Positions 7,895 to 61,775 of a stretch of DNA of 64,000 nucleotides are shown in pieces (position 1 is the first letter of the stretch; the number at the start of each line of letters is the position of its first letter). This stretch comes from Alopecurus myosuroides (taxonomy: Eukaryota > Streptophyta > Magnoliopsida > Poales > Poaceae), in the NCBI GenBank assembly GCA_028641055.1, contig CM054060.1, positions 315,879,344-315,943,343 of the forward strand, given 5' to 3'. Made by a program: the position numbers and the translations under genes. The notes under the pieces are model-generated. The model was not told where the DNA came from. It saw only the letters and a program-made list of their open reading frames with translations, and made no database searches.

Positions 7895-7943
7895 GTACAC
7901 TAGTAGAAAACAGGGCATTGAGCCAAGCACAATGGAACCGGAT

Positions 7944-8117
7944 GTGATACAAACCGGTTCAAAAGGGTCTGTCCCCTGGGCCCCACCCATGCAGCAAATG
8001 GCCGCAAGGCCTTTAGGACCGGTTTGTAACACAAACCGGTCCTAAAGGCCTTGCGGGCCATTTGCTGCAGGGAGGGGGGCCCAGGGGACAGACCCTTTAG
8101 AACCGGTTTGTATCACA
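7944..8117. repeat. Long inverted repeat at the left end of CACTA-1
   Basis: Two arms of about 85 bp meet near 8,030 and match almost completely. The left arm begins GTGATACAAACCGGTT and the right arm ends AACCGGTTTGTATCAC, with AAGGCCTTTAGGACCGG-type subterminal repeats inside. It is the innermost form of the subterminal inverted repeats and would fold into one long hairpin if transcribed. Confidence 0.85.
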
Positions 8118-8552
8118 AACCGGTTCTACAGGTTCTCTCATTTTTTGCAGCTACTGCGGGTCCCGCTGTCATATCCTTTAGAACCGGTTTGTAACACAAA
8201 CCGGTCCTAAAGCCCTCCCCTAAACCCTACATACCACCCCGAGCTCAGCTCCATTTTTTCCAGCTCTATCTCAACTCCATTTTTGCTCTCTCCTTCCTCT
8301 TGTGAGGTCTAATCCATCCCCATTTTTCTCCACCATTTGTTAAGATTGTTGGTACCCATCGGTCCTACGGTTAGCATCAACATTCCCTCTTTCGGCATTG
8401 CAAGTTTTGCTTGTTTTCTTGCTCATTTCATTTTTGTTGTGCTAGCTAGGTGTTTGATGAAATGCCTAAGCTAGAATTTGTTATTCATTTTGTTATGTAT
8501 ACAAATTGATGCAATTTGAGCTCAAAATTAATTATGATTTGTGGTTTTTTTA

Positions 8553-9200
8553 GTGTCGTGCGCCTTGTCCCCTTCCTCACTGCCGTCGATCGCCCCATCA
8601 CCGACACAACCTTGGTGAGCCTATTGTTTTTATTTACCAAAACAAATTTTGATTTGTATGATTTACGTATATATTTACTTGTATATAATTTTCTTATTGT
8701 GTAAGATTTTTTTTATATACATAGCGCCATGGTTTTGATATCCGTCCCCGTTGGCCCTCGTCCAGTCTATGATTCGGATGTGGTATATTATGTTTTTTCA
8801 CTACATATTTTCATTTCCTGATTATACGACAATTACTTACGCCGACCAACTTGACATAGATATTTTTATCTAGGAGGTAGTGGAACCGGAAATGCCAATC
8901 GACCCTATTGTTGAGAAGTTATACTTAGTTGAACAAGAAAATGTTGGCTTGAAAGAAAGATTGAAAAAAACTGAAGAAAGGTTGGAAAAAACTGAAAGAG
9001 AGAAGATGACCTTGGAAAAGGTTCTTGCCGGTGTCGTCGATGGTCACAAGAGCGAGATGGACGCAATGCGCCTGAAGATTAGAAAGATTAGGAAATATGC
9101 AATTAGTAAAGAGGCTTGGTATCATTATGCCGTCGGGTCAATTGTTACCTTTGTTGCGATTTTGATCGCATTTGTTGTTGTTTTTAAATGCATTAATTAG
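8553..9200 (+). CDS. Small coiled-coil protein with C-terminal membrane anchor (CACTA-borne), three visible exons
   Basis: Likely exons, each bounded by AG and GT: about 8,553-8,612, about 8,724-8,781, and about 8,874 to the stop at 9,198-9,200. The last exon encodes a charged heptad-rich coiled coil (LVEQENVGLKERLKKTEERL and on, about residues 12-50 from its first Met). A basic patch (RLKIRKIRKYA) and one strongly hydrophobic segment of about 22 residues (VGSIVTFVAILIAFVVVF) follow, with only a few residues after it. This is tail-anchor topology. I know similar proteins as recurrent companions of TNP2 in grass CACTA elements, but their function is unknown. An upstream first exon near 8,280-8,350 is possible. 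Confidence 0.55.
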
Positions 9201-9360
9201 AGAGAGTTTTTATGGATGGTTTCAGTGTGTATTTTTATGACAGCTATATATGTATGGTCACTATACGCTAGTTTGGTATTAACGTGTGATGAACTTTTTG
9301 TATTAATTAATTAATTTAGTCATGATGATTTAGCATAATGGTTGTTGATAAATTTATATA

Positions 9361-12300
9361 ATGCAGATGAACCGGCAATGGATGTACAGTGATCGACGTC
9401 GTCCCGAATTCCTTAATGGCATGCATAGTTTTCTCAATGTGTCTGAGAAAAATAGGCAGAATGGATTTATTTTTTGTCCATGTAAAAAATGCCAGAATAA
9501 GAGGAATTTCCATAACTCAAGAACCATACACACCCACATGTTGCAAGAAGGCTTCATGCCCAGTTATTTTTGTTGGACCAAGCACGGAGAAAGAGGGGTT
9601 GTAATGGAAGACAATGAAGAAGAAGAGGATGATGATAATTATCCTATGTTCGGTGAACACGGTGATACTGAAATGGGGGAAGACGAGCCTGAACTTGAGG
9701 ACATTGTTGATGAGTCTGATGATGATCTTCGTCAGGTCATTCGTGAAGAACAGATAAACTGCGCAAGTGAAAACGAGAGGTTGAACTTGGAGCGCATGTT
9801 AGAAGACCACAAAAAATTGTTGTACCCAAATTGCGAAGATGGCCAGAAAAAGCTGGGAACCACCCTGGAATTGCTGCAATGGAAGGCAGAGAATGGATTA
9901 TCTGACAAGGGATTTGAAAATCTGCTGAAAATAATGAAGAAGATGCTTCCAAGAGATAACGTGCTGCCCTGCAGTACATACGAAGCAAAGAAGGTTGTCT
10001 GCCCTCTAGGATTGGAAGTGCATAAGATACATGCATGCATCAATGACTGCATCCTCTACCGCGGTCAGCACGAGAATTTAACTGCCTGCCCGGTATGCGG
10101 TGCATTTCGGTACAAGATTAGGCGAGATGACCCTTGTGATGTTGAGGGCGACGATCGCCCCAGGAAGAGGGTTCCTGCCAAGGTGATGTGGCATGCTCCT
10201 ATAATACCATGGTTGAAACGTTTGTTCCGAAACAAAGAGCATGCCAAGTTGCTGCGATGGCACAAAGAAGACCGTAAGGAAGACGATATGCTGAGACACC
10301 CCGCTGATGGGTCGCAGTGGAGAAACATCGACGATAAGTACGAGGACTTTGCACGTGACGCAACAAACTTAAGGTTTGGTCTGAGTACAGATGGCCTGAA
10401 TCCGTTTGGGGAGCAGAGTAGCAGTCATAGCACCTGGCCCGTGACTATGTATCTATAATCTTCCTCCTTGGTTATGCATGAAGCGTAAGTTCATTATGAT
10501 GCCAGTGCTTATCCCAGGCCCGTCGCAACCTGGCAACAACATTGATGTGTACCTGAGGCCACTGGTTGATGAAATTTTAGAGTTGTGGGCTGACGAAGGT
10601 GTACGTGTGTGGGACGAGTACAAACAAGAGGAATTTGACCTACGAGGGTTGCTGTTTGTAACCATCAATGATTGGCCCGCTCTTAGTAACATCTCAGGAC
10701 AGTCAAACAAGGGATACAGCGCATGCACACACTGTTTAGGCGAGACTGAAAGTATACATATAGGCAAGAATGTGTACCCGGGGCATCGTCGATTTCTTCC
10801 AGACAGGCATCCCGTAAGAAAGAAAGGAAAGCATTTCAAAGGCGAGGCAGATACACGGAGGAAGCCAACCCTCCCTAAAGGTACTGATATATATGACATG
10901 GTCAAAGATATAAAAGTAATCTTTGGTAAGGGTCCTGGCGCACAATCTGTTCCGAATGACGCCGACAACCACGTAGCCATGTGGAAGAAGAAATCTATAT
11001 TCTGGGAACTACCCTATTGGAAATTCCTAGAGGTTCGCTCTGCGATCGACGTGATGCACGTGACGAAAAATATTTGCGTGAACCTGCTAAACTTATTGGG
11101 CGTGCATGGGAAGAAGTCGAGAGATACACCAAAAGCACGGCTGCACCACCAACGTATGCACGAACGAGACGACCTGATGAATCCAGAGAATTTCAAAGGT
11201 CCTGCCAGCTACGCTCTTACCAAGGAAGAGAAGGAGATCGTTTTCCAAGTCCTGAGCAGTATCAAGGTCCCGTCTGGCTACTCGTCGAACATAAAAGGAA
11301 TACTAAACCTGGAAGAGAAAAAGTTCCAAAACCTAAAGTCTCATGACTGTCACGTGATCATGACCCAGTTACTTCCGATTGCATTGAGGGGGCTTCTGCC
11401 AGAAAACGTGCGAGTACCCATTGTGAAGCTATGTGCATTCCTCAACACAATTTCTCAGAAGGCAATCGATCCAGCAACTCTACCAAGTTTACAGAAGGAC
11501 GTGGTCCAATGTCTTGTCAGCTTCGAGTTGGTGTTCCCACCAACCTTCTTCAATATTATGACGCACCTCATAGTTCACCTAGTCCAAGAGATTTCCGTTC
11601 TCGGTCCTGTATTCTTACACAATATGTTCCCCTTTGAGAGGTTCATGGGAGTCTTGAAGAATTATGTTAAAAACCGTGCTAGGCCGGAAGGAAGCATGGT
11701 CAAGGGCTATGGAACAGAGGAGGTCATTGAGTTTTGTGTTGACTTTATTCCTGACCTGAACCCGATCGGTGTTCCTCAGTCGCGCCATGAGGGGAGACTG
11801 CGTGGAAAAGGCACGCTAGGAAAGAAATCAACAACATGTATGGACGAGCAATCTTTCACTCAAGCACACTACACAGTTCTAGTTAATTCCAGCTTGGCAG
11901 CTCCATATATCCAGGAACACACGGATATTTTACGCTCGGAATACCCGGAGCAACCTGAAGATTTCATTGCTAAAGAACACGCGAAGACTTTCGGCGGTTG
12001 GTTGCAAAGACGTCTCATTAATGACAACATTGTTGAAGATGAGCTATACTTGTTGGCCAAGCAACCATCTTCGACTATATTGACCTTTAAAGGGTACGAG
12101 ATAAATGGTAACATATTTTACACGGCAGACCAAGATAAAAAGAGCACCAACCAAAACAGTGGCGTCCGGTTTGATGCAAAAGACGACAACGGGCAAAGGG
12201 TCACATACTATGGTTACATAGAGCAGATATGGGAACTTGACTACGGACCTTCCTTTAAGGTCCCTTTGTTCTGGTGCAAATGATTTGACCTGTCAGGCGT

Positions 12301-12660
12301 GAATGTAGAGCCGAAGTACGGAATGACAACAGTGGAATGACAACAATGATCAATTCGTCCTAGCCAATGATGTGGCTCAGGTTTTCTATGTGAAGGACAT
12401 GTCTAGCAGACCGAGAAAAAGAAAAGATAAGGAAGCGAATACATCAGACGATGAGCCAAGACGCCACATAGTTCTTTCAGGGAAAAGAAACATCGTGGGA
12501 GTCGAGGACAAGACATACATGTCAGAAGATTACAATAAATTTGATGAAATTCCTCCCTTCAAAGTCAAAGATGATCCAAGCATTCAGTTAAATGATGAAG
12601 ATGTTCCATGGTTATTACGGCGCAATCAGAAGAAAGGCAAGAAGAAAAATAGAAACAGAT
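9361..12660 (+). pseudogene. TNP2-type CACTA transposase, disabled
   Basis: N-terminal transposase-associated domain (FIFCPCKKCQN, then TRHGERG-like TKHGERG), an acidic linker, then the main TNP2 domain through residue ~365 and on after a frame change (ACINDCILYRG, ACPVCGAFRYK, KRKFIMMPVLIPGP). A DUF4218-like part (SHDCHVIMTQLLPIALRGLL) and a DUF4216-like part (GYEINGNIFYT) follow. It would bind and cut element ends. Damage: a frameshift at about 10,455 (two bases missing relative to the CACTA-4 homologue); a TGA at about 12,281 where the homologue has Trp; a short deletion near 12,330. The tail (FYVKDMSSRPRKRK to EDVPWLL) continues in a third piece. The start follows a good acceptor (ataatgcag). 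Confidence 0.92.
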
Positions 12661-12734
12661 CATCCCTTTTGTCCCGGTTGGGGACACCAACCGGACTTAA
12701 TGGGTTAGGGTTTCGTTTGGATCAATCAGATAGA

Positions 12735-12920
12735 ATCACACGGATCGTGTGTTTCTTTCAACCGCTTGTGAGCCGTTGGATCCGGGGTGTGTTTCTTTCC
12801 AGCTGTTTGTGAGCCGTACGATCAGGGCTACGGTGTGTTTCTTTCGAGCTGTTGTGAGCCGTTGGATGAGATGTTTCTTAACCGTTGGATCAAAACCCTA
12901 GCTCAACACTTTGTGAGCCA
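12735..12920 (+). repeat. Degenerate tandem repeat upstream of the hairpin array
   Basis: Four imperfect copies, about 45-50 bp each, of a unit with GTGTGTTTCTTTC and TGTGAGCCGTTGGATC. They lie directly upstream of a TATA box and could be promoter-associated. Confidence 0.65.
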
Positions 12921-12928
12921 GAGGACCC

Positions 12929-12938
12929 TATATATAGC
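12929..12938 (+). promoter_or_regulatory. TATA box upstream of the hairpin array
   Basis: CCTATATATAGCCC is a strong plant TATA element. The expected transcription start, about 30 bp downstream (about 12,960), falls just before the first hairpin (12,974), the spacing seen for Pol II small-RNA precursor genes. Confidence 0.55.
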
Positions 12939-12973
12939 CCAGCTTCATACACCGTTCAGTTCATCTCCCAAAT

Positions 12974-13080
12974 ACAAAACATCCGGATTCGCCAGCATAC
13001 GCCCTGCTGTGCATTTGGTATGCATATATGCACTCAGTAGCCACTGCAGGGTTGTATGCTGGCGATACCGATTGTTTTGT
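12974..13080 (+). ncRNA. Candidate structured RNA / miRNA-like hairpin, unit 1
   Basis: A 107-nt inverted repeat. The 5' arm ACAAAACATCCGGATTCGCC pairs with the 3' arm that ends GGCGATACCGATTGTTTTGT. Pairing continues through CAGCATAC/GTATGCTG and CCCTGC/GCAGGG to a loop around GCATATATGC. The stem is about 45 bp with a few bulges. It does not read as protein. Unit 1 differs from units 2 and 3 in the stem, with matching changes on both arms. Confidence 0.6.
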
Positions 13081-13134
13081 TCTACACCCCCCTTTAAGGT
13101 TTGATACATCATATATTCAGTTCATCGAGCAAAT

Positions 13135-13241
13135 ACAAAACATCCGGATTCGCCGTCATACGTCCAGCCGTGCATTTGGTATGCATATATGCACCCAGTA
13201 GCCACGGTTGGGCTATATGACGGCGATACCGTCTGTTTTGT
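13135..13241 (+). ncRNA. Candidate structured RNA / miRNA-like hairpin, unit 2
   Basis: Same design as unit 1, 161 bp further on. The outer stem ACAAAACATCCGGATTCGCC is identical, but the inner stem is CGCCGTCATAC paired with ATATGACGGCG instead of CGCCAGCATAC with GTATGCTGGCG. The central CCAGCCGTG pairs with CACGGTTGG. The loop (GTATGCATATATGCAC) is conserved. Confidence 0.6.
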
Positions 13242-13294
13242 TCTACACCCCCTTTAAGGTTTGATACATCATATATTCAGTTCATCGAGCAAAT

Positions 13295-13405
13295 ACAAAA
13301 CATCCGGATTCGCCGTCATACGTCCAGCCGTGCATTTGGTATGCATATATGCACCCAGTAGCTAGCCACGGTTGGGCTGTATGACGGCGATACCGTTTGT
13401 TTTGT
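13295..13405 (+). ncRNA. Candidate structured RNA / miRNA-like hairpin, unit 3
   Basis: Almost identical to unit 2 and 160 bp downstream. It has a 4-bp insertion in the loop side (GTAGCTAGCC for GTAGCC) and one base change (CTGTATG for CTATATG) that improves pairing with CATAC on the 5' arm. The linkers between units (CTACACCCC to TTCATCGAGC) are also repeated. Confidence 0.6.
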
Positions 13406-13465
13406 TCTACACCCCCCTTTGGAAACAGAAATAAGAAGAAAAGAAATGTGCGCCCCCCCTGTACA

Positions 13466-13500
13466 GGCCTTTAGTACCGGTTGACGTTAACAACCGGCGC
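13466..13500. repeat. Internal CACTA-type subterminal repeat
   Basis: GTACAGGCCTTTAGTACCGG followed by an inverted AACCGG motif: the same kind of repeat as at the two ends of CACTA-1, here about 5.5 kb from the left end and just upstream of the AP2-like gene. Confidence 0.6.
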
Positions 13501-13567
13501 GGGAGTTGACGCATGGCGCGGGAGTTCACGCGTGGTGCGGGAGTTGTGACGCGTGGCCAGGAGGGCA

Positions 13568-13577
13568 TGGTATAAAC
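13568..13577 (+). promoter_or_regulatory. Probable TATA box of the AP2-like gene
   Basis: GGTATAAACT lies about 75 bp before the ATG at 13,648, a normal plant distance for a short 5' UTR. Confidence 0.45.
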
Positions 13578-13647
13578 TGTCGCGCCTCGAGCGCGTCTTC
13601 TCCTCTCCACGCGCCCACTCCTCTCCACGCACCGTCGCGCTTCCACA

Positions 13648-14284
13648 ATGCCTCCGAGGAGAAACAGCACCACCGGCTTCTGCGGCATCCGAGCACGGCA
13701 GAACGGAATGTTCAGCGCAGATATCCGCTGGGGGGACGACTGCATCCCCCTCGGCTCCTTTGCGACGGCGGCGGAGGCCGCCCTCGCCTGGGACGCGGCG
13801 GCCTGGCGCCTCAACCGCCCGCGGTCGCTGATGAACTTCAACGACTGCCACACCGTCTGGGAAGCGGAGGCCAGGGCTCCAAAGCCGCATATCGTCACTG
13901 CCGCCGACCACCTCCACCTCCGCCACCGCGCGTTTCAGGGCCTAGTCGACGCCATGGAAGACCGCGTCGTCCGCGAGTATTACCGGAACAACCCGGGGGA
14001 GGAGAGCGCCGACGAGGAGCTCTGGCAGACCCGCGCGGCTGAGCGGGCGGAGCGCCGCCTCGAACGCCACCTCGCGTTAGATGCCGCTCGGGAGGCGAGG
14101 ACGAATGCGCTGCAAGAGCTACCACGCCGGCGAAGTCTGGGCCTCCGACGATCCGAGGTGGGGGCCTATCTCGGACATACCATCATGCACCTCCGACGAC
14201 GACGAGGAGGTCACCGACGAGTTCGACAACGACGATGACCCGGAGGAGGTCAGCGACGAGTTCCCCGACGACGACGAGGAGTAG
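13648..14284 (+). pseudogene. AP2/ERF-like domain protein carried by CACTA-1, frameshifted near the 3' end
   Basis: Residues about 9-68 match the AP2 fold: TGFCGIRARQNGMFSADIRW for the GVR-type first strand, LGSFATAAEAALAWDAAAWR for the helix, and NRPRSLMNF for the end. The family's usual YRG is FCG here, and the WEIR-type core is ADIRW, so DNA binding is plausible but altered. The rest is charged and helical (RAAERAERRLERHLALDAAREA). The original frame runs to 14,238. The neighbouring frame supplies an acidic tail (VTDEFDNDDDPEEVSDEF) ending at TAG 14,282-14,284, the kind of ending I expect, so a 1-bp indel near 14,095-14,110 is likely. Two AATAAA signals follow (about 14,308 and 14,371). 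It faces the exonuclease gene tail to tail. Confidence 0.7.
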
Positions 14285-14578
14285 TGTTCGTCTGTTTTCT
14301 CTTTTTTAATAAAAGAATTTGTATTCCGGCGACACTGCGGCGTGCAAGCGCGTCTGTTTTCTGTTTTTAATAAAAGTAACCTTCTGTTTTCCATGTTTTC
14401 CATGTGTTATAAATCAATGTAAAAGAAAACAGGCAAGTGAAACAAAAAAGAAAAATAAAAAAAGAAAAATCTACATGTATGGTATCTCGCTAAATCAATC
14501 TATATATATGTATCCAAGATATATATGCTCGATGTATCACTTGCGCTCTCACTTCTCGTTGCCTTACTCATTACCCAC

Positions 14579-14752
14579 CCTAACTTACCACAGGCGCATA
14601 AACTTCAGTATGCGCCTGGGGTAACATTACCGCAGGCGCACCGTGGACGAATGCGCCTGGGATAAGAGTACTACCGCAGGCGGACAGTGTACAAATGCGC
14701 CTGGGATAAGAGTACTACCGCAGGCGCACAGTGTAAAAATGCGCCTGGGGTA
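14579..14752. repeat. Array of four short palindromic repeats between two convergent genes
   Basis: Four units of TACCRCAGGCGCA ... TGCGCCTGGGRTA, each about 38-48 bp and each an inverted repeat with an 11-15-base spacer, separated by AAGAGTACT-type linkers. It resembles CACTA subterminal repeats, but of a different family from the CACTA-1 ends. It lies between the 3' ends of the AP2-like and exonuclease genes. Confidence 0.75.
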
Positions 14753-14944
14753 AGTGATCAAATTTTTCCCATTCTACACCACATTTTATATCTTTGTTTC
14801 TGATTTTAGAACACAATCATATCACATTCATAACATAGAGTCTTACGATCACACATAACACAAACATAAGTCTCACAATACTAAGATATCCATTAATTAC
14901 ATACTAAGATATCCATTACATGCATATATATCGAACGCATACAT

Positions 14945-15643
14945 CTATGGATCCGTCGAGTAGATGCGGAACAACTCGTAGGAGACGTATGCATCTATGG
15001 CTGCATACTTGACGTTCGTGAAGTCCAGTGGGTTCTTCTCCCAATACCAGTGATTACTCGAGGGGAAACCAGACTTCATGGTTTCGTAGCCCTCGTGGAT
15101 GAAGGCAGTTGCCATGCGAGCCATCCCGGTCGTTGCCCCGTTCAAATGGATAAGATCCTGAAGATCAATGTAGTGATCTTCAGGTATCACAATACCCAAG
15201 CGCTTCAACTTCGGACGGTCTTGAGTGATGTCAACGCTGCAAAAGTCATATCCCTTGTTGACTAGAAAATCAACAAGTGCCGGAGAATGCTTTGAACTAC
15301 TGCAACAACAAAAATTTGATACGTGTTAGATATGTTGCAGCACATGTATTCTTCACATGCAACAAACAAATAGAAGATGCAAGATTGTACGTGTGTGTTA
15401 CCTTGACCATTGGAAGACCAAAACGGCCTCCTTGAACACAATCTGGATGACGGCAACATCCCGTTTATCCGCCGTATACTCCAGATCAAGCCCGAAGAAC
15501 CGGTGTTCATCGGGAGAGGACAAATAGAGATTGGTCAAATGCGCAAGAGGACCGGGGAGCCTCTCGCAACTGTTGGTGTAGCACACCTCGAGTTGCTTGC
15601 CGCATGGTGTGGGACCATGGTATATCTCCCAAACTTCAGCCAT
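14945..15643 (-). CDS. WRN/RNase D-type 3'-5' exonuclease domain protein, two exons, apparently intact
   Basis: Exon 1 is 15,643-15,402 and exon 2 is 15,299-14,945; the intron has GT and AG ends, and the joined frame is open for 198 codons. The start ATG has a good context (ACCATGG). Exo I is FFGLDLEY, giving the metal-binding Asp and Glu; Exo II corresponds to the VDIT/DLQDL region; Exo III is NVKYAAIDAYVSY, giving Tyr and Asp. These are the DEDDy catalytic positions. The size suits a stand-alone plant WRN-exonuclease-like protein. It would remove nucleotides from DNA or RNA 3' ends. It lies inside CACTA-1, opposite in strand to the transposase. An unbroken reading frame in an otherwise broken element is notable. 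Confidence 0.8.
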
Positions 15644-15786
15644 GGTGTGCTTGGTGGAGGAAGATCAAGAGAGGAAGAAGAGAAGACAGAGGAAGAAGAG
15701 AGAATACAGAGAAACAGAAAGACTCGCGATCGGGAACTGTAGCAATAAAACCGCCGCGCGCGGGAGGCGAGCAGTTTGTACAGAGA

Positions 15787-15956
15787 CCCTTTAGCACCGG
15801 TTGTTAACACAAACCGGTGCTAAAGGTCTGTACAGGGCGCGCAGTCTGAATGTGGCCCCAAGTACAGGCCTTTAGCACCGGTTTGTGTTAACAACCGGTG
15901 CTAAAGCCCCTTTCGCACCGGTTGTTAACACAAACCGGTGCTAAAGGCCAGTAGTG
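15787..15956. repeat. Internal block of CACTA subterminal repeats with a terminus-like end
   Basis: Several inverted copies of TTTAGCACCGGTTGTTAACA, ending GGCCAGTAGTG at 15,956. On the other strand this reads CACTACTGGCC, which looks like a CACTA terminus. It may be the right end of a smaller CACTA unit that contributed the AP2-like and exonuclease genes. I find no matching left end with a duplication. Confidence 0.6.
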
Positions 15957-16019
15957 GGGCGATATCTCGGGAAGTTGTGAAAATTTTGCTCATTTTCATT
16001 CGCGCGTCTTCTCTCCTAG

Positions 16020-16320
16020 CACGTACGGCGGCGAAGCCCTGCTCCGGCCGCGCCTCTCCGTCCGCCTGGCCTCCGTCCGCCGCGCCTCCGTCCGCCTCTG
16101 CTTCCGTCGCCGTTGCCGCCGCTGCCCTCTGCCTCCGTCGCCGTCGATCCCCCGCGGCCCCGCCTCCGTCGCGCCGTCGCCGTCCGCCTCCGTCGCCCCG
16201 CCTCCGCCTCCGCCGCCCCGCCTCCGTCCCGCCTCCGCCTCCGCCGCCCCGCCTCCGCCTCGTCGATCGCCTCTCGCCCCTCGCCGTCGCCCCGTCGCCC
16301 TATGTACGCTCGTAGGTAAG
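16020..16320 (+). other. C-rich simple-sequence region
   Basis: Dominated by CCTCCG/CCGCC repeats. It could be the 5' UTR or first exon of ORF2. No convincing protein is seen. Confidence 0.45.
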
Positions 16321-16339
16321 TTTTATTTCTGTTTTCACA

Positions 16340-16560
16340 ATTTTGTTTAGTGTTAGAATTTTTAGAGTTAGTGTTAGAATTTTTAGAGTTAGTGTTAGTG
16401 TTAGTGTTAGAAATTTTTAGAGTTAGTGTTAGATTTTTTTTTAGAGTTAGTGTTAGAAATTTTTAGAGTTAGTGTTAAATTTTTTTAGAGTTAGTGTTAG
16501 TGTTAGAATTTAGTGTTAGAAATTTTTAGAGTTAGTGTTAGATTTTTTTAGTGCTTTAAT
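16340..16560. repeat. TTAGTG minisatellite
   Basis: Many irregular copies of AGTTAGTGTTAGAATTTTT-type units, probably within an intron of ORF2. Confidence 0.75.
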
Positions 16561-16844
16561 TTGTTTTTACAATTTTGTTTAGTGTTAGAATTTTTGTGTT
16601 AGAATGTTGTGTTAGAAGTTAGTGTGTTAGAAAATTTCACTAAGTCGTTAGTGTTAGAAAATTTCGGAAAGTTAGAATAATTGCACTAAGTTGAGAAATT
16701 TTACTAACTTACCATTTTGTTCCTGTTTAACTTTCATCTTATTTCTGTTATATTTCTCAATTTACTATTTTTTACTAAGTTAGAAACACTAAGGTATTTT
16801 ACTTAATTATGGAATATTTACTTAGTCCGGGCATGTTTTTAGTT

Positions 16845-17238
16845 CATGTCTCTGTTGGACCCGTCGGGCGATGTCCGGGACTGGGCCCCGCCAGGCTGGC
16901 ACTGGGAGCTCATTAGTACCGGGGCACGCGGCTTGGTGAGAAATCCGGGTGACGTGGTCGACCCGGATATTCTTTGGTGGCCATCGCGTGGGCCACGCTC
17001 GGTGCGGAGAGAGCCGGCCCCTGAGGAGGTGGTACAACAGCGCATCAGGGAGGAGGACCAGCACGTCCGTCGCTACATGTACTTGCTCGATACGCAGTAT
17101 AGGCAGTATAGCAGCAGTTGGTCGATTATTCGGAGGGTTCCTTACCACGTGAGCTATGACCCTATGAGGGTTCCTTATCTATGGATGCGTAGCACCCGTG
17201 ACTCAGCACCCCGCGGCTTAGGACCCGGTCGGAGTTAA
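16845..17238 (+). CDS. CACTA ORF2, upstream exon (unknown function)
   Basis: Encodes about 130 residues rich in Trp, Pro and Arg: WAPPGWHWELISTGARGLV, then an Arg/Glu-rich helix (VVQQRIREEDQHVRRYMYLLD) and a short C-terminus with SYDPMRVPYLWMRS. It ends at TAA 17,236-17,238. It lies between the C-rich leader and the main ORF2 exons on the same strand. I do not recognise a domain. It may be a separate small gene or the first exon of ORF2. Confidence 0.45.
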
Positions 17239-17475
17239 TTATTTTGAGAGATGTCACGAGACTATGTATAAGTGATATTATTCGATCGTGATGTATTAGG
17301 GTTAAAAAAATTAACCCGAGCTATGTAACTCTTGGTGTGTCCAGAACTATTATTTCATTAATATGTCCAGAACTATTATTTTATTACTGTCCGATGAAAT
17401 AATTTCGCCAAGTGCCCGATGAAAATTTCGCTAAGTGTTCTTCATTTTATAAATTTTACTAGCAGGTGTTGAGCT

Positions 17476-18913
17476 ATGGATCCCCAAGAACCTGCACATG
17501 ATCCGCACGCCGATAAACTCGCGGGAATGGGTGAGGCGGAGAAGGAAAGATTAATGTGCGAGATGATTTTTAATAATGCAACGGCCATATATCGTGATGA
17601 CAACGGTGGACAGGCGTTTATCAATCAATTTTTGAACGACTCCGGTGCCGGAGATCAGAATATAGAAGATGTAGTAGATGATGACGACGACAACGTCGAG
17701 GATGAAGAAGTGCCCTCCAGAACAAACTCTGCCAATGTATATATCAAGTCACTGTTCACGCAACAATTAATTTGTATTGCACTTACTAACGAATCATTAT
17801 TTTCCCGTTTAGGCGCCCTCCGGAACAGCTAGCGCAAGTACTGAGACAAAGTCGAAACGAGGCCTGGCCGCAAGGTTGAAAGATACCGCAAGCTTCCCGA
17901 TCGATACAGTTGCTGCTGATGGCAAACCACTCCAGCCCCCAGAAACTTATCGCAAATTCGTAAATCAGTGCGGAGTTGTTGTAAGAGACCTGGTCCCGAT
18001 CAACTTAATAGAATGGAATAAGCCGAAGACCGGGGCCAACGTTGGAGCTAGTTATGTCGATGAAAGATTGAAAAAAATTCTTTGCGAAACGCTATGGCTA
18101 AATTTCAGCGTAGCGAGCGATAAGAAGAAGAAAGTCGAGCAGTGGGCTTTGAAGAAGATGGCCACACAATTCCAGAGGTGGAAGAAAAAAATGTGGAAGA
18201 AATATAAGAACGAAGATCCAGTTTTCACTGGGAACCTAGTGAAGATAAGAGACGCTTGGGATGATTTTAAGGCGTACAAGAAATCGGGTGTCTTTACATC
18301 CCGATCGGCCACAAATTCGGAGAATGCGAAGAAGAAGAAATATCACCATATTTTGGGGTCAGGTGGCTACATGACTGCCCTGCCTAGGTGGCGAAGCTAT
18401 GAAGCTGCGCTTGTGAAAAGAGGTATCATTCCACAGACACATGACTGGCCCGATAGGTCCAAGTTCTAGTTGTTCGCGCATGGGGCAACGTTGGACGCTG
18501 AGACTGGGATGATTTTTGCTCAGGGACCATGGTCGGAAAAAATAACAAAAGTCGTAGCAGAACTAGAGAAGGCAATAGAAGCTGTTCGAAAAGGAACTTT
18601 TGTTCCCGATAGAGAGAACGACGAGCTGACGAGGGCACTCGGGAACCCTGAAAAGTGGGGACGAACACGAGGCTTTGGAGCCTCTACCCCGTGGAGCCAA
18701 GGGTTTGCAGCGGACATTGGCACTTACAGAAGCCGTGATAGAAGCAAGAAAAAGGCGATGGAACGGCTATCGACATTAGAACAAAAGGTGGATTTTCTCT
18801 TGAAGAAAGGGGGACACCCTCTACCTGACACTGAAGAGGAGGTAGAACATCGTCCTGCACCTGATCAGCTGCAAATAGAAGACGATCATGTAGCAGAAGC
18901 CGTCCCATCTTAG
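17476..18913 (+). pseudogene. CACTA ORF2 main exons, TnpA-like plant transposon protein
   Basis: Starts MDPQEPAHDPHADKLAG and has an acidic block (DVVDDDDDNVEDEE). After a short intron (about 17,736-17,813), a lysine/tryptophan-rich conserved region follows (FVNQCGVVVRDLVPINLIEW, WALKKMATQFQRWKKKMWKKY, SGGYMTALPRWRSYE). This is the plant Ptta/En/Spm transposase-like family, which in CACTA elements accompanies TNP2 and is thought to bind subterminal repeats. A TAG at 18,467-18,469 interrupts the frame just before LFAHGATLD (Trp TGG to TAG is likely). The frame then continues through a coiled-coil part (LSTLEQKVDFLLKK) to 18,913. Confidence 0.7.
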
Positions 18914-18940
18914 CATAGAAGCAGCGTTGGTTCCACGCAC

Positions 18941-21309
18941 ATGCAGCTAGAAGACGGTCGTGCAGTCGAACCGTCGGCGCCTCACTACCCCGTGGATGAT
19001 ATCACGGAGAAGACAAACTGTGAGATACATATGCCAATGGGGAACATATCCTTCAGGGTGGCGTCAGGCTATGCTTTACCGAATCAACCTGGAGCAACCT
19101 ACCATGGTGGTCAGATTCCAACATCCCATGCTCGTGTCGGGTTGTCAACAATTACGCCGGGATGCCATTCAATTGAGCTCCATATTCCTGGAGGTGAAGG
19201 CGAGAAGACACTGGGAGAAATGGAGCTTGGTATCATATTGTGGAATAAGAAACACATCGTGTTTCCTAACTCGGCGCCAAGGCCACCGACTCCTCCAGGT
19301 ACAAATGCACCATATATACCTCCATCAATTACTGAATGTTGCACCACATGTAAGCTTATTTTTAATAGTTTTTTCACTTTCGTACAGAGAATGGACGACC
19401 TCCAAGTCCACCCCCCAACGAACCTCCAAGTCCACCCCACAACGAAGATTGGGAGCCCGAGGCCGAGGGTCCATCGCCCGTGCACTCCCATGAGCCGACG
19501 GATGCGCCCACTACGGGTACGGCAAAGCGGCAGCTGAAGTTCAGAAGAAACGGGACTCCTCCCAAGAAGAGACCAAGGAAATCCAAGAAAGTCGAGACTC
19601 CGCCGAAGTTACCAGGCCTGATGACTCCGGAGGAACTACGCGATGTCGTGAAAGCCAAAACCAGGGCATGGTTCACACAGTTTCCCCTGAAGCCCCCTCC
19701 AGACACTTGGAAGGAAACTCTGAAGGACATCCCAAAGTGGAAAATTGAGCGGACCATCGACAACTTATATTATCCTGCACCGCCGCCACCGCCGCCCCTT
19801 TCAGACTATGAACGGTACATTGAGAAGACGCACACCGCACAGATGAAGCAGACGGAGGAGATGAAGCAGGCGGAGCAGACGAAATGCGGGAAACAAGTTC
19901 CCCAGCTCGGACAACAAGAAGCACGGTCAATTGCCCCGCTAAAGGTCTTATCTGACCAGGCTTCAGTGTCCGGTCCACGCATGGGCGACGTGGGTTACGC
20001 TATTGCTGATGTGGTATATACATACAAGCCCGGGCACCCTCTGGTCGAAAATCCTACTGATCTAACAACCCAACTACATAGTTTACATGATTGGTACTTG
20101 GAGGCCGCAAGGCAGGAGAGAGACTGTATCATGGCTCAAGTTCAGGATCAACACTACTTCGGAGATTACGGTGTCGAGCTTGGGTTCGATGATTTCTTCC
20201 AGATGTACAATCAACGTGCCCTCGACAAGTCTATCCTCAGCTGCTACTGTTTGTAAGTGATTTATTTCTGTAATTTAATTATTTAGTTAAGCTCGCGTTC
20301 GTTGCCCGTATAATTATCACTCACGACATTCTTTTTGTACGCTACTATGCAGAATGAAGATTCGTGAATGCAGACTGGCAGGAATCTGGGACTTTGGGTT
20401 CATTGACCCGTATTCGTATCATCAAAACACAGTAGAAAGGTTCAACAAGGATACACCGGATGATTTGTTAAGGTTTTTGAAGCGACAAAGTACCAAAAAA
20501 GAAATACTTTGGCCCTACGGATTCAAGTGAGTGTTACTGTCTTGTAGACATTCCATTTTGCTTACCTGATGTTAAGTGTAATTGATGAGTATGCATGACT
20601 GCGTGTGTACACGTGCGCAGCGGCCACTTCATATTGTTCATCATTAGAATCGATAAAGGACAAGTTGAAGTCTGGGACTCGTTAACCTGGGGCGCTGACA
20701 CATGGAAGACCGCGCGTCAGATGCTTCAAAAGTATATATATATCGGCCTCTTTCGTTCATTCCCTAATATCAAGTAAGTAATAATTAACTCTTCTATTCA
20801 TTTTTCTTTTGTCGCCTAGGGTTTGGCAAATGTTCATCAAGGAAGAACCCGGTACATGGGCAGACATTCTCCACTTTCAGATTAACAAAGTAATTAGTGT
20901 TACGTACTCTGATTTAAATACCATTACCATTCTCTTGATTATTATTAATTTGACTGAATTATGTTTCTCGTATATAGAAAGTCCCGCAACAACCACAGGG
21001 AACTGATTATTGTGGATACTACGTTTGCGAGTTCATTCACAGGACGATCAATGAGAAATCCCGTACTAGGAGAAATCTAGAGGTATGTAACCGGATCTTC
21101 ACAACTTTATTTATGTTGCCATTAATTATGTTTAGTTTTGTTCATAACTTAATTGTTTTCATCTACTTCTTTTCAAGATGGCACGAAAGCGGGCGCAGCT
21201 CAAACAAATCGACCGTTGCAAGGCTATTGCAGAGGAATTGGCAGGATTTCTTCTCACGCAAGTCATAGCAGAAGACGGAGAATTTTTCCATCCTATGAAC
21301 CAATTATAG
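18941..21309 (+). CDS. Proline/lysine-rich region plus Ulp1-type (C48) protease domain, multi-exon
   Basis: About 18,941-19,370 encodes a segment of unknown fold, and 19,384-20,252 a basic, proline-rich part (RQLKFRRNGTPPKKRPRKSK, then PPPPPPLSDYE). The protease exons follow, with consensus GT/AG borders: 20,353-20,526, 20,621-20,731, 20,820-20,889, 20,978-21,082 and 21,178-21,309 (stop TAG). Catalytic positions seen: His in NGHFILFI, Asp in VWDSL, Gln in PQQPQGTD and Cys in DYCGYYVCEF. Ulp1-type proteases cut SUMO-like modifiers. Grass transposons are known to carry such genes. It is probably the C-terminal half of the ORF2 gene. The exact frame link near 19.0-19.4 kb is unclear. Confidence 0.75.
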
Positions 21310-21639
21310 CCAGCTCCCTTCTCTATGCAAGTATACAGCTATTGAAAACGAACTTCAGATTATGTAATTCTCGGTCGATTACTTCGTGTTACATGTATAT
21401 ATATATGTACTTTTATTTGGTGCATCAACATTTAACCGCAAACACGGAATCGGAAACACTTAACCGCAAACACGGAATCGGTGTTTCCGGATAAGTATTT
21501 CCGATTACGTGTTTTCTGATTATGTAAACGGAAACACGTAAACGGAAACCCTGAAAATACGGAACACGCCCTAAACCCTAAACACTAAATACGGAATTGG
21601 AAACCCTGAAAAGAAAAGGAAAAAAAAAATAAAAAAAAG

Positions 21640-21847
21640 CTTTAGGACCGGTTGGTGTTACCAACCGGTTCTAAAGGTCCTCCGCCTGCGCACGCTCTTC
21701 GGCGCCCACGTGGAGGCCTTTAGAACCGGTTGGTGACTGACCGGTTCTAAAGGGGGGGGCCTTTAGTCCCGGATACGTAGCACCGGTTTTGTATCCGAGT
21801 CCAAAGGCCCTTACAAACCGGTGCTACTGGCCTGTTCTCCACCAGTG
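21640..21847. repeat. Right-end subterminal repeats of CACTA-1
   Basis: Inverted copies of TTTAGGACCGGTTGGT and related motifs end in the terminal inverted repeat. Upstream (21,430-21,640) are short direct repeats of CGGAAACACGTAAACGG type. Confidence 0.85.
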
Positions 21848-21850
21848 GTA

Positions 21851-34729: not shown

Positions 34730-37700
34730 TTATGATCGCTTCGGCCGTAACCATGGAGCATCTTCATTATTTAACGGGATGGTGGGGTCAGCTTTCACTG
34801 TGAAGGGTGGAATTTCAACAAACTTATTATAATCTTCTGACATGTCTGTCGTGTCCTCGATTCCTACGATGTTTCTTTTCCCTGAGAGAACTATGTGACG
34901 CTTCGGCTCATCGTATGATGAAATTGTTCCCTTATTTTTTCTTTTCTTCGGTCTGGAAGACATGTCCTTCACATAGAAGACCTGAGCCACATCATTGGCT
35001 AGAACGAATGGTTCGTAATTGTAACCAATACAGTTGAGATCCACTGTTGTCATTCCATAAAGCGGGTCTACCTTTACCCCTTCTCCATTCAGGTTGACCC
35101 ATTTGCACTTGAACAAAGGGACCTTAAAAGAAGGTCCATAGTCAAGTTCCCATATCTCCTCTATGTAACCATAGTATGTGTCAGTTTTTCCATTCTCGTT
35201 TGTTGTATCAAAGCGGACACCACTGTTTTGGTTGGTGCTCTTCTTATCTAGGGAGCTCGTGTAAAATGTATTCCCATTTATCTCGTACCCTTGAAAACTC
35301 GCAATAGTCGAAGATGGTGACCCTGCCAACATGTATAGCTGATCTTCAACAGTGGTGTCATTTATAAGACGTGTTTGCAACCAACTTCCGAAAGTCTCCA
35401 TGTGTTCGCGTTTAATCCATGAGTCATCCTTCCCCGGGTTTGCAGACCGTACAATATTCTTGTGTTCCTCGACATACGTAGCCATGAACATAGAATTTTG
35501 TAGAACTGTGTAGTGTGCTTTGGTCAAAGAATGCCCGTCCCTAGGTATCATTGTTTTCTTTCCCAGCGTTCCTTTTCCCCTCAGTCTCCCCTCATGCCGC
35601 GATTCAGGAACACCAATTGTCTTAAGGTCAGGAATAAAGTCAACACAGAACCCAATGACCTCCTCTGTTCCATAGCCCTTCGAGATGCTTCCTTCTGGCC
35701 TAGCACGGTTATGAACATATTTCTTCAAGACTCCCATGAACCTCTCAAAGGGGAACATATTGTGTAGAAATACCGGACCGAGAATATGAATCTCTTCACA
35801 TAGGTGAACAAGGAGATGAGTCATAATGTTGAAGAAGGATGGTGGGAACACCAACTCAAAACTAACAAGACACTGGACCACATCCCTCTGTAATCTTGTC
35901 AGAATTTCTGGATCGATTACCTTCTGAGATATTGCGTTCATGAATGCACATAGCTTCACAATGGGTACTCGAACATTTTCCGGTAGAAGCCCCCTCAATG
36001 CAATCGGAAGCAATTGCGTCATAATCACGTGGCAGTCATGAGACTTCAGGTTTTGGAATTTTTTCTCTGCCATGTTTATTATCCCCTTTATATTCGACGA
36101 GAAGCCAGACGGAACCTTGATACTGTAAAGGACTTCAAAGAATATTTCCTTCTCTGCTTTAGTAAGAGCGTAGCTGCTTAAGGAATGGCGCCCTGTATCT
36201 GTGTGCTTGTTGCTTGGGTCTTTCATACGTTGCTGGTCCTCCCGTGCTTCAGGCGTATCTTTTGACTTCCCATACACGCCCAGGAAGCATAGCAGATTGA
36301 CACATAGATTCTTTGTCACGTGCATCACGTCGATCGAAGACCGGACATCTAAAACTTTCCAATAGGGTAGCTCCCAAAATATAGATTTCTTCTTCCACAT
36401 GGGTGCCCGCTTATCAGGGCCGTACGGAACTGGTTGGCTGCCAGCAGCCTTACCAAAGATTACTTCTAGGTCCTTGACCATATCGAATATATCATTACCA
36501 CTACGGAGCTCAGGCTTCTTTCGGTTATCTGCCTCACCTCTGAAATGCTTCCCTCCTTTTTTCCTTAAGGGATGCTTGATCGGAAAAAATCTATGATGCC
36601 CCAGGTATACAACCTTTTTACATTTATCCAAAAAAAACACTGTCAGTCTTATCTAAACAGTGTGTGCATGCATTGTATCCCTTGTTTGTATGACCGGAAA
36701 TGTTACTAAGAGCTGGCCAATCATTGATGGTCACGAAAAGCAACGCCCGTAGGTCAAATGGCTTTTGTTCGTTCTCATCCCACACACGTACACCTGGTTT
36801 GCCCCACAGTTCTAAGAGTTCTTCCACTAATGGCCTTAGATACACATCAATGTCGTTGCCAGGTTGCCTCGGGCCTTGGATGAGAACTGGCATCATAATG
36901 AACTTGCGCTTCATGCACAACCAATGAGGAAGGTTGTACATACATAGAGTTACAGGCAAGTGCTATGACTGGAGCTCTGCTCCCCAAAAGGATTAAAGCC
37001 ATCTGTACTTAGACCAAACCATAAGTTTCTCGCCTCTCCTGCAAAGTCTGGAAAGTCTCTCTCGATCTTTCTCCACTGCGATCCATCGGCGGGGTGCCTC
37101 AACTTTCCATCTTTCTTACGGTCTTCTTTGTGCCATCGCAACAACCTAGCATGCTCTTTGTTTCTAAACAGACGTTTCAGCCGTGTTATTATAGGAGCAT
37201 ACCACATCACCTTAGCAGGAACCCTCTTACGGGGGGGCTCGCCGTCAACATCACCAGGATCATCTGCTCTGATCTTATACCGCAGTGCAGTGCATATCGG
37301 ACATTCATCCAAATTCTCGTACTTCTCACCGCGGAAGAGAATGCAGTCATTAATGCATGCATGTATCTTCTGCACATCTAATCCTAGAGGGCAGAGAGCT
37401 TTCTTTGCTTCGTACGTACTCTCAGGCAATTCGTTATCCTTTGGAAGTTTTGGCTTCATTAGTTGAAGTAAACTCTCAAATGCCTTGTCAGTCACACCGT
37501 TTTGTGCCTTCCATTTCAGCAACTCCAGTGTGGTACCGAGCTTTGTGCTACCATCTTCGCAATTTGGGTATAACAATTTTTTGTGATCCCGTAACATGTT
37601 GTCCAGCTTCAACCTCTCCAATTTATTTTCACAGTCTTCCCTTGCATCAGCAATAACTCGGCCAAGATCATCATCGGGCTCTTCTGATGCCTGTTCTTGA

Positions 37701-56537: not shown

Positions 56538-57165
56538 AGGAGGAAATGAGGGCTCGACGCTCATATTTTCAGAATGCGCCTCCTATATATTATGCGAGGC
56601 GCATTTCCAAGATGTGCCTCCTATAATGTATATATAGGAGGCGCATTCCAAAAATATGCGCCTCGCATACTTCATGTAGGGACCACAGCCTCCTGGCTCC
56701 AGGTTATGCGAGGCGCATTTGTCCATATGCGCCTCCTATACTGTAAGTATAGGAGGCGCACTTCTATAATATGCGCCTCCTATATTTTGTGTGGGCCCGG
56801 GTGGCTTCTGAGGCAGACAAGGCGAGGCGCATCTCGCAGAATGCGCCTCCTATAGTTGGAGATATAGGAGGCGCATATTTGTGGAATGCGCCTCCTATAT
56901 ATGCATTATAGGAGGCACATCTTGGAAATGCGCCTCGCATAATATATAGGAGGCACATCTTGAAAATGCGCCTCGCATAATATATAGGAGGCGCATTCTG
57001 AAAATATACGCCTCCTATAATATCCAGCACGATTTTTGCTACTTTTTAGCACATGGGGCCCGGGTGACGTCGGTGATAGCGAAGACGAGGGAGTTATAGG
57101 AGACGCACTGTAAAATGCGGCTCGCCTAACTTATAGGAGGCGCAGTTGTACAATGCGCCTCGGGT
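56538..57165. repeat. Left subterminal palindrome array of CACTA-2
   Basis: More than ten copies of AGGAGGCGCAT / ATGCGCCTCCT in alternating orientation, many forming direct hairpins with AT-rich loops. Confidence 0.9.
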
Positions 57166-61394: not shown

Positions 61395-61775
61395 AAATGT
61401 TATAAGAGGCGCATATTAAATGCGCCTCCTATAAGTTATAGGAGGCGCATTCTGATATGGGCCTCCTATAACTTATAGAAGGCGCATTTCAGAATGCGCC
61501 TCCTATAACTTATGGGAGGCGCATTCTAAAATGAGCCTCCTATAACTTATAGGAGGCGCATTCTGGAATGCGCCTTCTATAACTTATAGGAGGCGCATTC
61601 TGGAATGCGCCTTCTATACTTGAATATAGGAGGCGCATTTCAAATGCGCCTCCTATATGCAGGTATAGGAGGCGCATTTCAAAATGCGCCTCCTATAAGC
61701 CAAAATATGCGAGGCTTGGCGCTGAAGGCTCATTCCATATGCGCCTCGAATAACAAAAAAACGAGCCTCCTATAA
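61395..61775. repeat. Right subterminal palindrome array of CACTA-2
   Basis: About eight inverted pairs of TATAGGAGGCGCATTC and its complement, spaced by short AT loops, leading into the terminal inverted repeat. Confidence 0.9.

Follow-up and report, generated by a model that had tools for sequence, protein, structure and literature searches.

Three tandem MIR9666-like hairpins carried by a CACTA transposon of Alopecurus myosuroides, with RNA polymerase II as their likely target

In rice, the microRNA miR820 is borne by a CACTA element, comprises a 22-nt species, and targets OsDRM2, which it is reported to lower (PMC3459959). In wheat, the 22-nt mature miR9666 has been sequenced with star-strand support (PMC4029127, PMC3997425, PMC3398953), and a partner 5p strand is listed next to it (PMC3997425). 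The published wheat strands are miR9666a-3p, miR9666b-3p, and the 5p strand miR9666c (PMC4029127); miR9666b-3p is identical in all 22 letters to the older tae-miR2003 (PMC4029127, PMC3398953). On wheat 1AL, tae-miR2003 was assigned six hairpins with star-strand support stated, and it was judged 'not repeat related' (PMC3398953). Reads of miR9666a-3p reached 35,543, with 10 in one library in which known microRNAs were scarce (PMC5550412). By Northern blot, miR2003a was detected in developing grains and embryos, in a report whose passages leave its letters unconfirmed (PMC4048363), and drought induces miR9666 members in Triticum monococcum (PMC12213836).

Several targets have been published for this microRNA. 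Degradome data from wheat show cleavage by miR9666 at 4 of at least 8 sites on TC389301, a transcript called Pol II by the authors, who supposed that its many sites stem from insertion or duplication of repeats; in wheat grain, miR9666 rose from 7 to 14 days while Pol II mRNA fell (PMC4591353). The words 'heptad' and 'CTD' are absent from the text of that paper. DNA-directed RNA polymerase II subunit 1 was named as the target of miR9666b-3p, and an alternative splicing regulator and NPR5 as targets of miR9666a-3p (PMC7045451). Other reports named a MYB-like gene (PMC8385717), a PLATZ gene (PMC7504575), and TaZHD1 (PMC9723156).

A computed chromosome table places miR9666 on all seven A chromosomes (1A-7A) and on Un, and on none of the 14 B and D chromosomes (PMC5258749), and this dispersal fits a mobile element. 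CACTA is the commonest transposon family among the wheat microRNA candidates of that study, the passages of which leave it unconnected to miR9666. miR2003 has been reported from barley too, and a peanut paper contains the miR9666a sequence; the range of the family may therefore extend beyond the A genome and beyond wheat. Transposon repeats account for many of the wheat 'microRNAs' (PMC3398953). Neither a placement of miR9666 in a CACTA element nor a reading of its sites as codons of the CTD heptad was found in the open-licence literature searched, and the target-site letters had no match in the literature text searched. Both the microRNA and Pol II as its target have been published; the CACTA location and the CTD-heptad reading described below are apparently new in the literature searched.

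We analyzed a 64-kb stretch of A. myosuroides DNA, hereafter the window. A CACTA transposon of 13,950 bp was found at positions 7898-21847, recognized by its terminal inverted repeats, the GTA outside them, and the tnp2 domains inside. The left terminal inverted repeat, CACTAGTAGAAAACAGG, occupies 7898-7914 on the plus strand, and the right one, CCTGTTCTCCACCAGTG (CACTGGTGGAGAACAGG on the minus strand), occupies 21831-21847 in minus orientation; compared by eye, the two 17-bp repeats are identical at 14 of 17 positions. The GTA target-site duplication stands at 7895-7897 on the left and at 21848-21850 on the right. Terminal inverted repeats of this CACTA type, flanked by a 3-bp target duplication, and a tnp2-type transposase together identify a CACTA element, in which the preliminary description had also placed the array.

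The transposase was detected with Pfam on the plus strand in two parts. The first (9361-10458) matched Transpos_assoc (PF13963) and profile positions 1-56 of tnp2 (PF02992), and the second (10478-12283) matched tnp2 positions 67-213 and DUF4218 (PF13960), so that tnp2 is divided between two reading frames. DUF4216, which is present in the 97%-identical protein P0001, was undetected by Pfam in the transposase ORFs tested in the element. These results indicate that the carrier transposase is not an intact gene here. Relatives of the second part numbered 1843 proteins; among the best 120 of these, the top two shared 97 and 98% identity, the nearest named relative was from barley (84%), and further relatives came from Lolium (70%), Triticum dicoccoides (68%), and rice (63%), as well as from an entry filed under Proteus mirabilis (73%), which is probably plant DNA. 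No transposase relatives were matched in the viral contigs (non-plant).

The array begins a short distance 3' of the transposase region. Directly 5' of a TATA box, a promoter-like block on the plus strand (12747-12928) contains a 26-35-bp motif in 3-5 copies (two repeat families of 5 and 3 copies), which is possibly a repeated promoter element. The TATA box itself, CTATATATAG (12928-12937, plus strand), stands 37-46 bp 5' of the first stem (12974), close to the distance of ~45 bp given in the preliminary description, and would serve as the promoter of the array. On the other side of the array, repeats of subterminal type are present at 13466-15956, along with an internal end that resembles that of a CACTA element, CCAGTAGTG, at 15948; no left end CACTACTGG matching it was found within the 64-kb window. 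This region may have been left by another CACTA element that lay within the first or became joined to it. A 196-aa ORF on the plus strand (13648-14238) also lies inside the element 3' of the array and is a possible captured host gene. Readings of this ORF as AP2-like and of the region near 15404-15643 as exonuclease-like were rejected, as no Pfam family reached its cut-off at either. Elsewhere in the window, at 34730-36640 on the minus strand, the remains of another tnp2-type transposase, which include DUF4218 and DUF4216, mark a further CACTA element.

A tandem array of three MIR9666-like units, with a period of 161 and 2.9 copies, occupies 12955-13420 on the plus strand. The units start at 12955, 13116, and 13276, and their spacing of 161 and 160 bp agrees with the approximate 160 bp first described. 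On the plus strand, each unit folds into one long hairpin (hairpin 1, 12974-13081; hairpin 2, 13135-13242; hairpin 3, 13295-13406), with z values of -8.60, -7.98, and -8.16 for units 1, 2, and 3, respectively, and none of the 200 shuffles of each unit was as stable as the real fold. The folds contain 41, 41, and 43 base pairs, which makes the earlier figure of about 45 bp for the stem a fair one. The reverse strands of the units fold as well (z of -7.31, -7.42, and -6.16). When the whole array was folded as a single 471-nt strand, a z value of -14.03 was obtained, and the minimum-energy form paired unit 2 with unit 3; co-transcriptional local folding would favor single hairpins over this pairing.

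The preliminary description had further reported that at least three stem pairs are altered on both arms between unit 1 and units 2-3, and had taken this covariation as the signature of a functional RNA. Three such pairs were counted (12994-13060, 12995-13059, and 13005-13048, the first two being adjacent), and the changes quoted were correct. Unit 1 differs from unit 2 by 15 substitutions. Judged by the unit-2 structure with its 41 pairs, 33 pairs are the same in both units and 3 are double changes; another 4 differ on one arm but remain paired, and a single pair, 13008-13045, is unpaired in unit 1. Across the units, 122 of 123 pair cells are able to pair. When the partners were slid by 1-3 columns, double changes vanished in all but one of the six slides, which had a single one, and column shuffles gave as many double changes in 14 of 500 cases. 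Because units 2 and 3 are nearly identical, this is in effect a single covariation comparison. The double changes are therefore real, but with one comparison, two adjacent pairs, and 14 of 500 shuffles equal, they are a weak signature when taken alone, and covariation as the sole argument for function was dropped. As evidence for selection, the compensated changes are modest, and copying between the arms could be an alternative source of them.

All three units matched the wheat microRNA family MIR9666 (Rfam RF03465), with alignments that cover 98 of 98 model positions. Hairpin 1 scored 73.3 bits (E = 1e-16) at 12979-13075, hairpin 2 scored 71.3 bits (E = 3.9e-16) at 13140-13236, and hairpin 3 scored 76.4 bits (E = 1.4e-17) at 13300-13400. 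The E values ranged from 1.4e-17 to 3.9e-16 when 551 bases were searched and from 1.6e-15 to 4.5e-14 for the whole window. No RF03465 match in the window reached the curated gathering score of 88 bits, and because the scores lie under this value, we speak of MIR9666-like homologues without claiming curated membership. The match is strand-asymmetric, with 71-76 bits on the plus strand versus 38-45 bits on the opposite strand. At other inverted repeats in the window, matches to MIR1319 and MIR5387 gave close scores on the two strands where both were listed (for example, 73.9/68.6 and 54.1/52.1). The MIR1319 matches, which are below threshold and on both strands, lie at 61475-61696 and 56555-57018 and are probably MITE-type inverted repeats, and the MIR5387 matches fall on CACTA subterminal repeats.

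The small-RNA strands of the array were placed by similarity to the published wheat strands. The predicted 3p small RNAs, all on the plus strand, lie at 13044-13065 in unit 1 (18/22 to miR9666a-3p), 13205-13226 in unit 2 (20/22 to miR9666b-3p), and 13369-13390 in unit 3 (21/22 to miR9666b-3p). The predicted 5p (star) strands, also on the plus strand, lie at 12991-13011, 13152-13172, and 13312-13332 and match miR9666c at 16/21, 19/21, and 19/21 positions, respectively. The duplexes predicted in this way have 2-nt 3' overhangs in all three hairpins and leave 1-2 bases of the mature strand unpaired. In unit 3, one mature-strand base is bulged, which suits a 22-nt 3p strand opposite a 21-nt 5p strand; bulges of this kind favor 22-nt products. 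No other site in the window matched the three published strands on either strand with up to six ungapped mismatches, and self-targeting was accordingly rejected. The precursor pattern had no match in the genome contig collection (non-plant), nor had a target-like pattern in the viral contigs (non-plant).

The reverse complement of miR9666b-3p reads TCG CCA TCA TAC AGC CCA ACC, that is, Ser-Pro-Ser-Tyr-Ser-Pro-Thr (SPSYSPT), which is one register of the RNA polymerase II CTD heptad Tyr-Ser-Pro-Thr-Ser-Pro-Ser. The same peptide is coded by the reverse complements of miR9666a and of the predicted 3p strands of units 2 and 3. The differences among these four readings (CCT/CCA, CCA/CCG, and TAC/TAT) are all third-position and synonymous; since 17 of the 63 possible single changes are synonymous, the chance of three out of three is about 0.02, and this pattern is no stronger than suggestive. 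Across all six frames of the window, a perfect 7/7 heptad is restricted to units 2 and 3. Another five stretches score 6/7; one lies at 57062-57082, and the other four overlap the two perfect heptads. Among 200,000 random 22-mers of hairpin composition (two frames, one strand), no 7/7 reading and two readings of at least 6/7 were obtained, and at even composition a 7/7 heptad is expected in about 4e-8 of frames. The reading is limited to the mature strand: the adjoining codon on either side is Val in units 2 and 3, and no convincing homology of the hairpin arms to RPB1 beyond the mature strand was seen when the translations were read by eye. In unit 1, the corresponding reverse complement codes SPAYNPA; its three amino-acid changes speak against a general constraint.

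Among the matches listed, SPSYSPT units numbered 13 in the RPB1 protein of Arabidopsis, 11 in that of taro, 13 in banana, 8 in Aegilops tauschii, and 9 in wheat CFC21_080580. SPAYNPA was found in none of the 10 RPB1 proteins examined among these matches; together with the one broken stem pair, this suggests that unit 1 may be decayed or aimed elsewhere. The 8-9 units of the Aegilops and wheat proteins agree with the published count of at least 8 sites, although both CTDs are degenerate and these proteins may not be the gene that is cut. The CTD is degenerate in each of the 7 grass RPB1-type proteins examined, out of 11 grass entries noticed among the matches listed; these 7 include P0311 from Aegilops tauschii and P0316 from Triticum aestivum. 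They contain 11-16 YSPTSP motifs, versus 26-29 in Arabidopsis, taro, and banana, and may represent a rapidly evolving grass paralogue of the largest Pol II subunit. Because the 3p strands of units 2 and 3 read as heptad codons and published cleavage falls in Pol II, the likely target of the array's 3p strands is RNA polymerase II, and DRM, AGO, or RDR genes seem less probable. DRM2, suggested by analogy with miR820, was accordingly dropped as the leading candidate, unit 1 being the only one of the three 3p strands that does not read as CTD heptad codons.

Compared with wheat MIR9666 (tae-miR9666a, b, and c; tae-miR2003), the array is alike in full-length homology to RF03465, in duplex position, in the 3p strands of unit 3 (21/22) and unit 2 (20/22), and in the SPSYSPT reading of these units. 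It differs in scoring below the gathering threshold, in comprising three tandem units, and in lying inside a complete CACTA element, whereas miR2003 was judged not repeat related (PMC3398953). The preliminary description was right to see structured small-RNA precursors in a CACTA element behind a TATA box as a parallel to rice miR820 (PMC3459959). Both are microRNA precursor cargo of a CACTA element with a 22-nt species, which in the array is predicted; miR820 cuts a host nuclear gene, and for relatives of the array such cutting is known from the wheat literature. The array differs from miR820 in its likely target, Pol II CTD codons that would offer many sites in each transcript, in its three tandem precursors, and in that no long stem homology to the target gene was seen in translations read by eye. 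CACTA-related wheat 'microRNAs' such as miR1117 and miR1131 are also hairpins matching CACTA elements, with 471 and 182 high-copy repeat matches on 1AL (PMC3398953). Unlike them, the array is internal to its element, stands behind a TATA box, and has a wheat relative with star-strand support (PMC3398953).

We consider it probable that the array represents a MIR9666-type (formerly miR2003) microRNA gene, carried as CACTA cargo, with three precursors behind one TATA box and 3p RNAs that cut RPB1. From the present analysis, this reading draws on the three hairpins, the CACTA element, the homology to MIR9666, the duplex geometry, and the heptad reading of two of the three 3p strands; from the wheat literature, it draws on the 22-nt mature RNA, its star-strand support, and the Pol II transcript cleaved at several sites. 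The microRNA could instead serve the host, with MIR9666 regulating the dose of Pol II or other grain and embryo genes and the CACTA element explaining only the spread of its copies. We regard this as a serious possibility, if somewhat short of an even one. The Northern signal of miR2003a in developing grains and embryos (PMC4048363), the rise of miR9666 while Pol II mRNA falls in grain (PMC4591353), the report of miR2003 in barley, and the broken carrier transposase speak for a host role, whereas the computed copies on all seven A chromosomes (PMC5258749) and the site behind the transposase fit mobile cargo, and the literature passages show no host benefit. It is also conceivable, and in our estimate rather unlikely, that the array is a dead relic, once functional and MIR9666-like but no longer transcribed or processed here, in a degenerate or methylated element. 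Its hairpins retain 41, 41, and 43 pairs with 122 of 123 pair cells pairing, and the TATA box and upstream repeats are still present, which tells against decay; the broken transposase frame and the diverged unit 1, with one pair broken, tell for it.

Two further explanations appear less probable still. An ordinary transposon inverted repeat might feed 24-nt heterochromatic siRNAs, in which case MIR9666 would be a mislabelled, transposon-derived wheat microRNA. This is consistent with the scores under the Rfam threshold, with the weak MIR1319 and MIR5387 matches drawn by other inverted repeats in the window, and with the transposon origin of many wheat 'microRNAs' (PMC3398953), but we think it quite improbable given the 22-nt mature strand with star support in wheat (PMC4029127, PMC3997425, PMC3398953), the strand-asymmetric RF03465 match, the heptad-coding register, and the degradome cuts (PMC4591353). 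Very improbable, in our view, is that the heptad reading is a coincidence, that the compensated changes arose by copying between arms, and that the microRNA acts on other genes. The double changes number only three, two of them adjacent, unit 1 has no heptad reading, and published predictions name other targets (PMC7045451, PMC8385717, PMC9723156, PMC7504575); against this stand the expected frequency of a 7/7 heptad, about 4e-8 of frames at even composition, and the naming of Pol II by one degradome paper (PMC4591353) and two prediction reports (one of them PMC7045451).

Under the reading of the array as a CACTA-borne MIR9666-like gene, Pol II would transcribe it from the TATA box at 12928 into a single transcript containing three precursors, from which Dicer would free the 22-nt 3p strands. 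AGO loaded with these strands would then cut RPB1 transcripts, which encode the largest subunit of RNA polymerase II, inside the CTD heptad codons, at every matching heptad, and 3p variants with different wobble bases would fit heptads of different synonymous codons. A 22-nt trigger with many sites might also start secondary siRNAs on RPB1. In the weakest step of this scheme, RPB1 would be lowered or tuned to the gain of the transposon, as reported for miR820 lowering OsDRM2. Against this reading we count the scores of all units under the Rfam gathering score (71-76 versus 88), the unit 2-unit 3 pairing preferred in the 471-nt fold, the other published targets (NPR5, the splicing regulator, the MYB-like gene, TaZHD1, and PLATZ), the broken carrier transposase, the confinement of the heptad reading to the mature strand, unit 1 with its SPAYNPA reading and broken pair, and the occurrence of miR2003 in barley and of the miR9666a letters in a peanut paper.

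A bolder version can be stated, which we put forward tentatively and think unlikely: a grass CACTA transposon would wield a tandem microRNA weapon against host RNA polymerase II at the CTD heptad codons, in an arms race at the wobble bases with the degenerate-CTD RPB1-type proteins as its product or target. Because the heptad protein sequence is both constrained and repeated, the host could escape only by synonymous recoding or by CTD degeneration, and microRNA variants of the transposon would keep pace through their wobble bases.

The locus joins three facts that stand separately in the literature searched, namely the multi-site cut of Pol II by miR9666/miR2003, the fit to CTD codons, and the possible location of the gene in a CACTA transposon. 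If the proposed reading is true, the repeated coding sequence would account for at least 8 sites of one microRNA in one gene, and a mobile element would tune the RPB1 subunit of RNA polymerase II and so join miR820 and DRM2 as a second, more central example. Such an element may be steering the gene-reading machine of its host.
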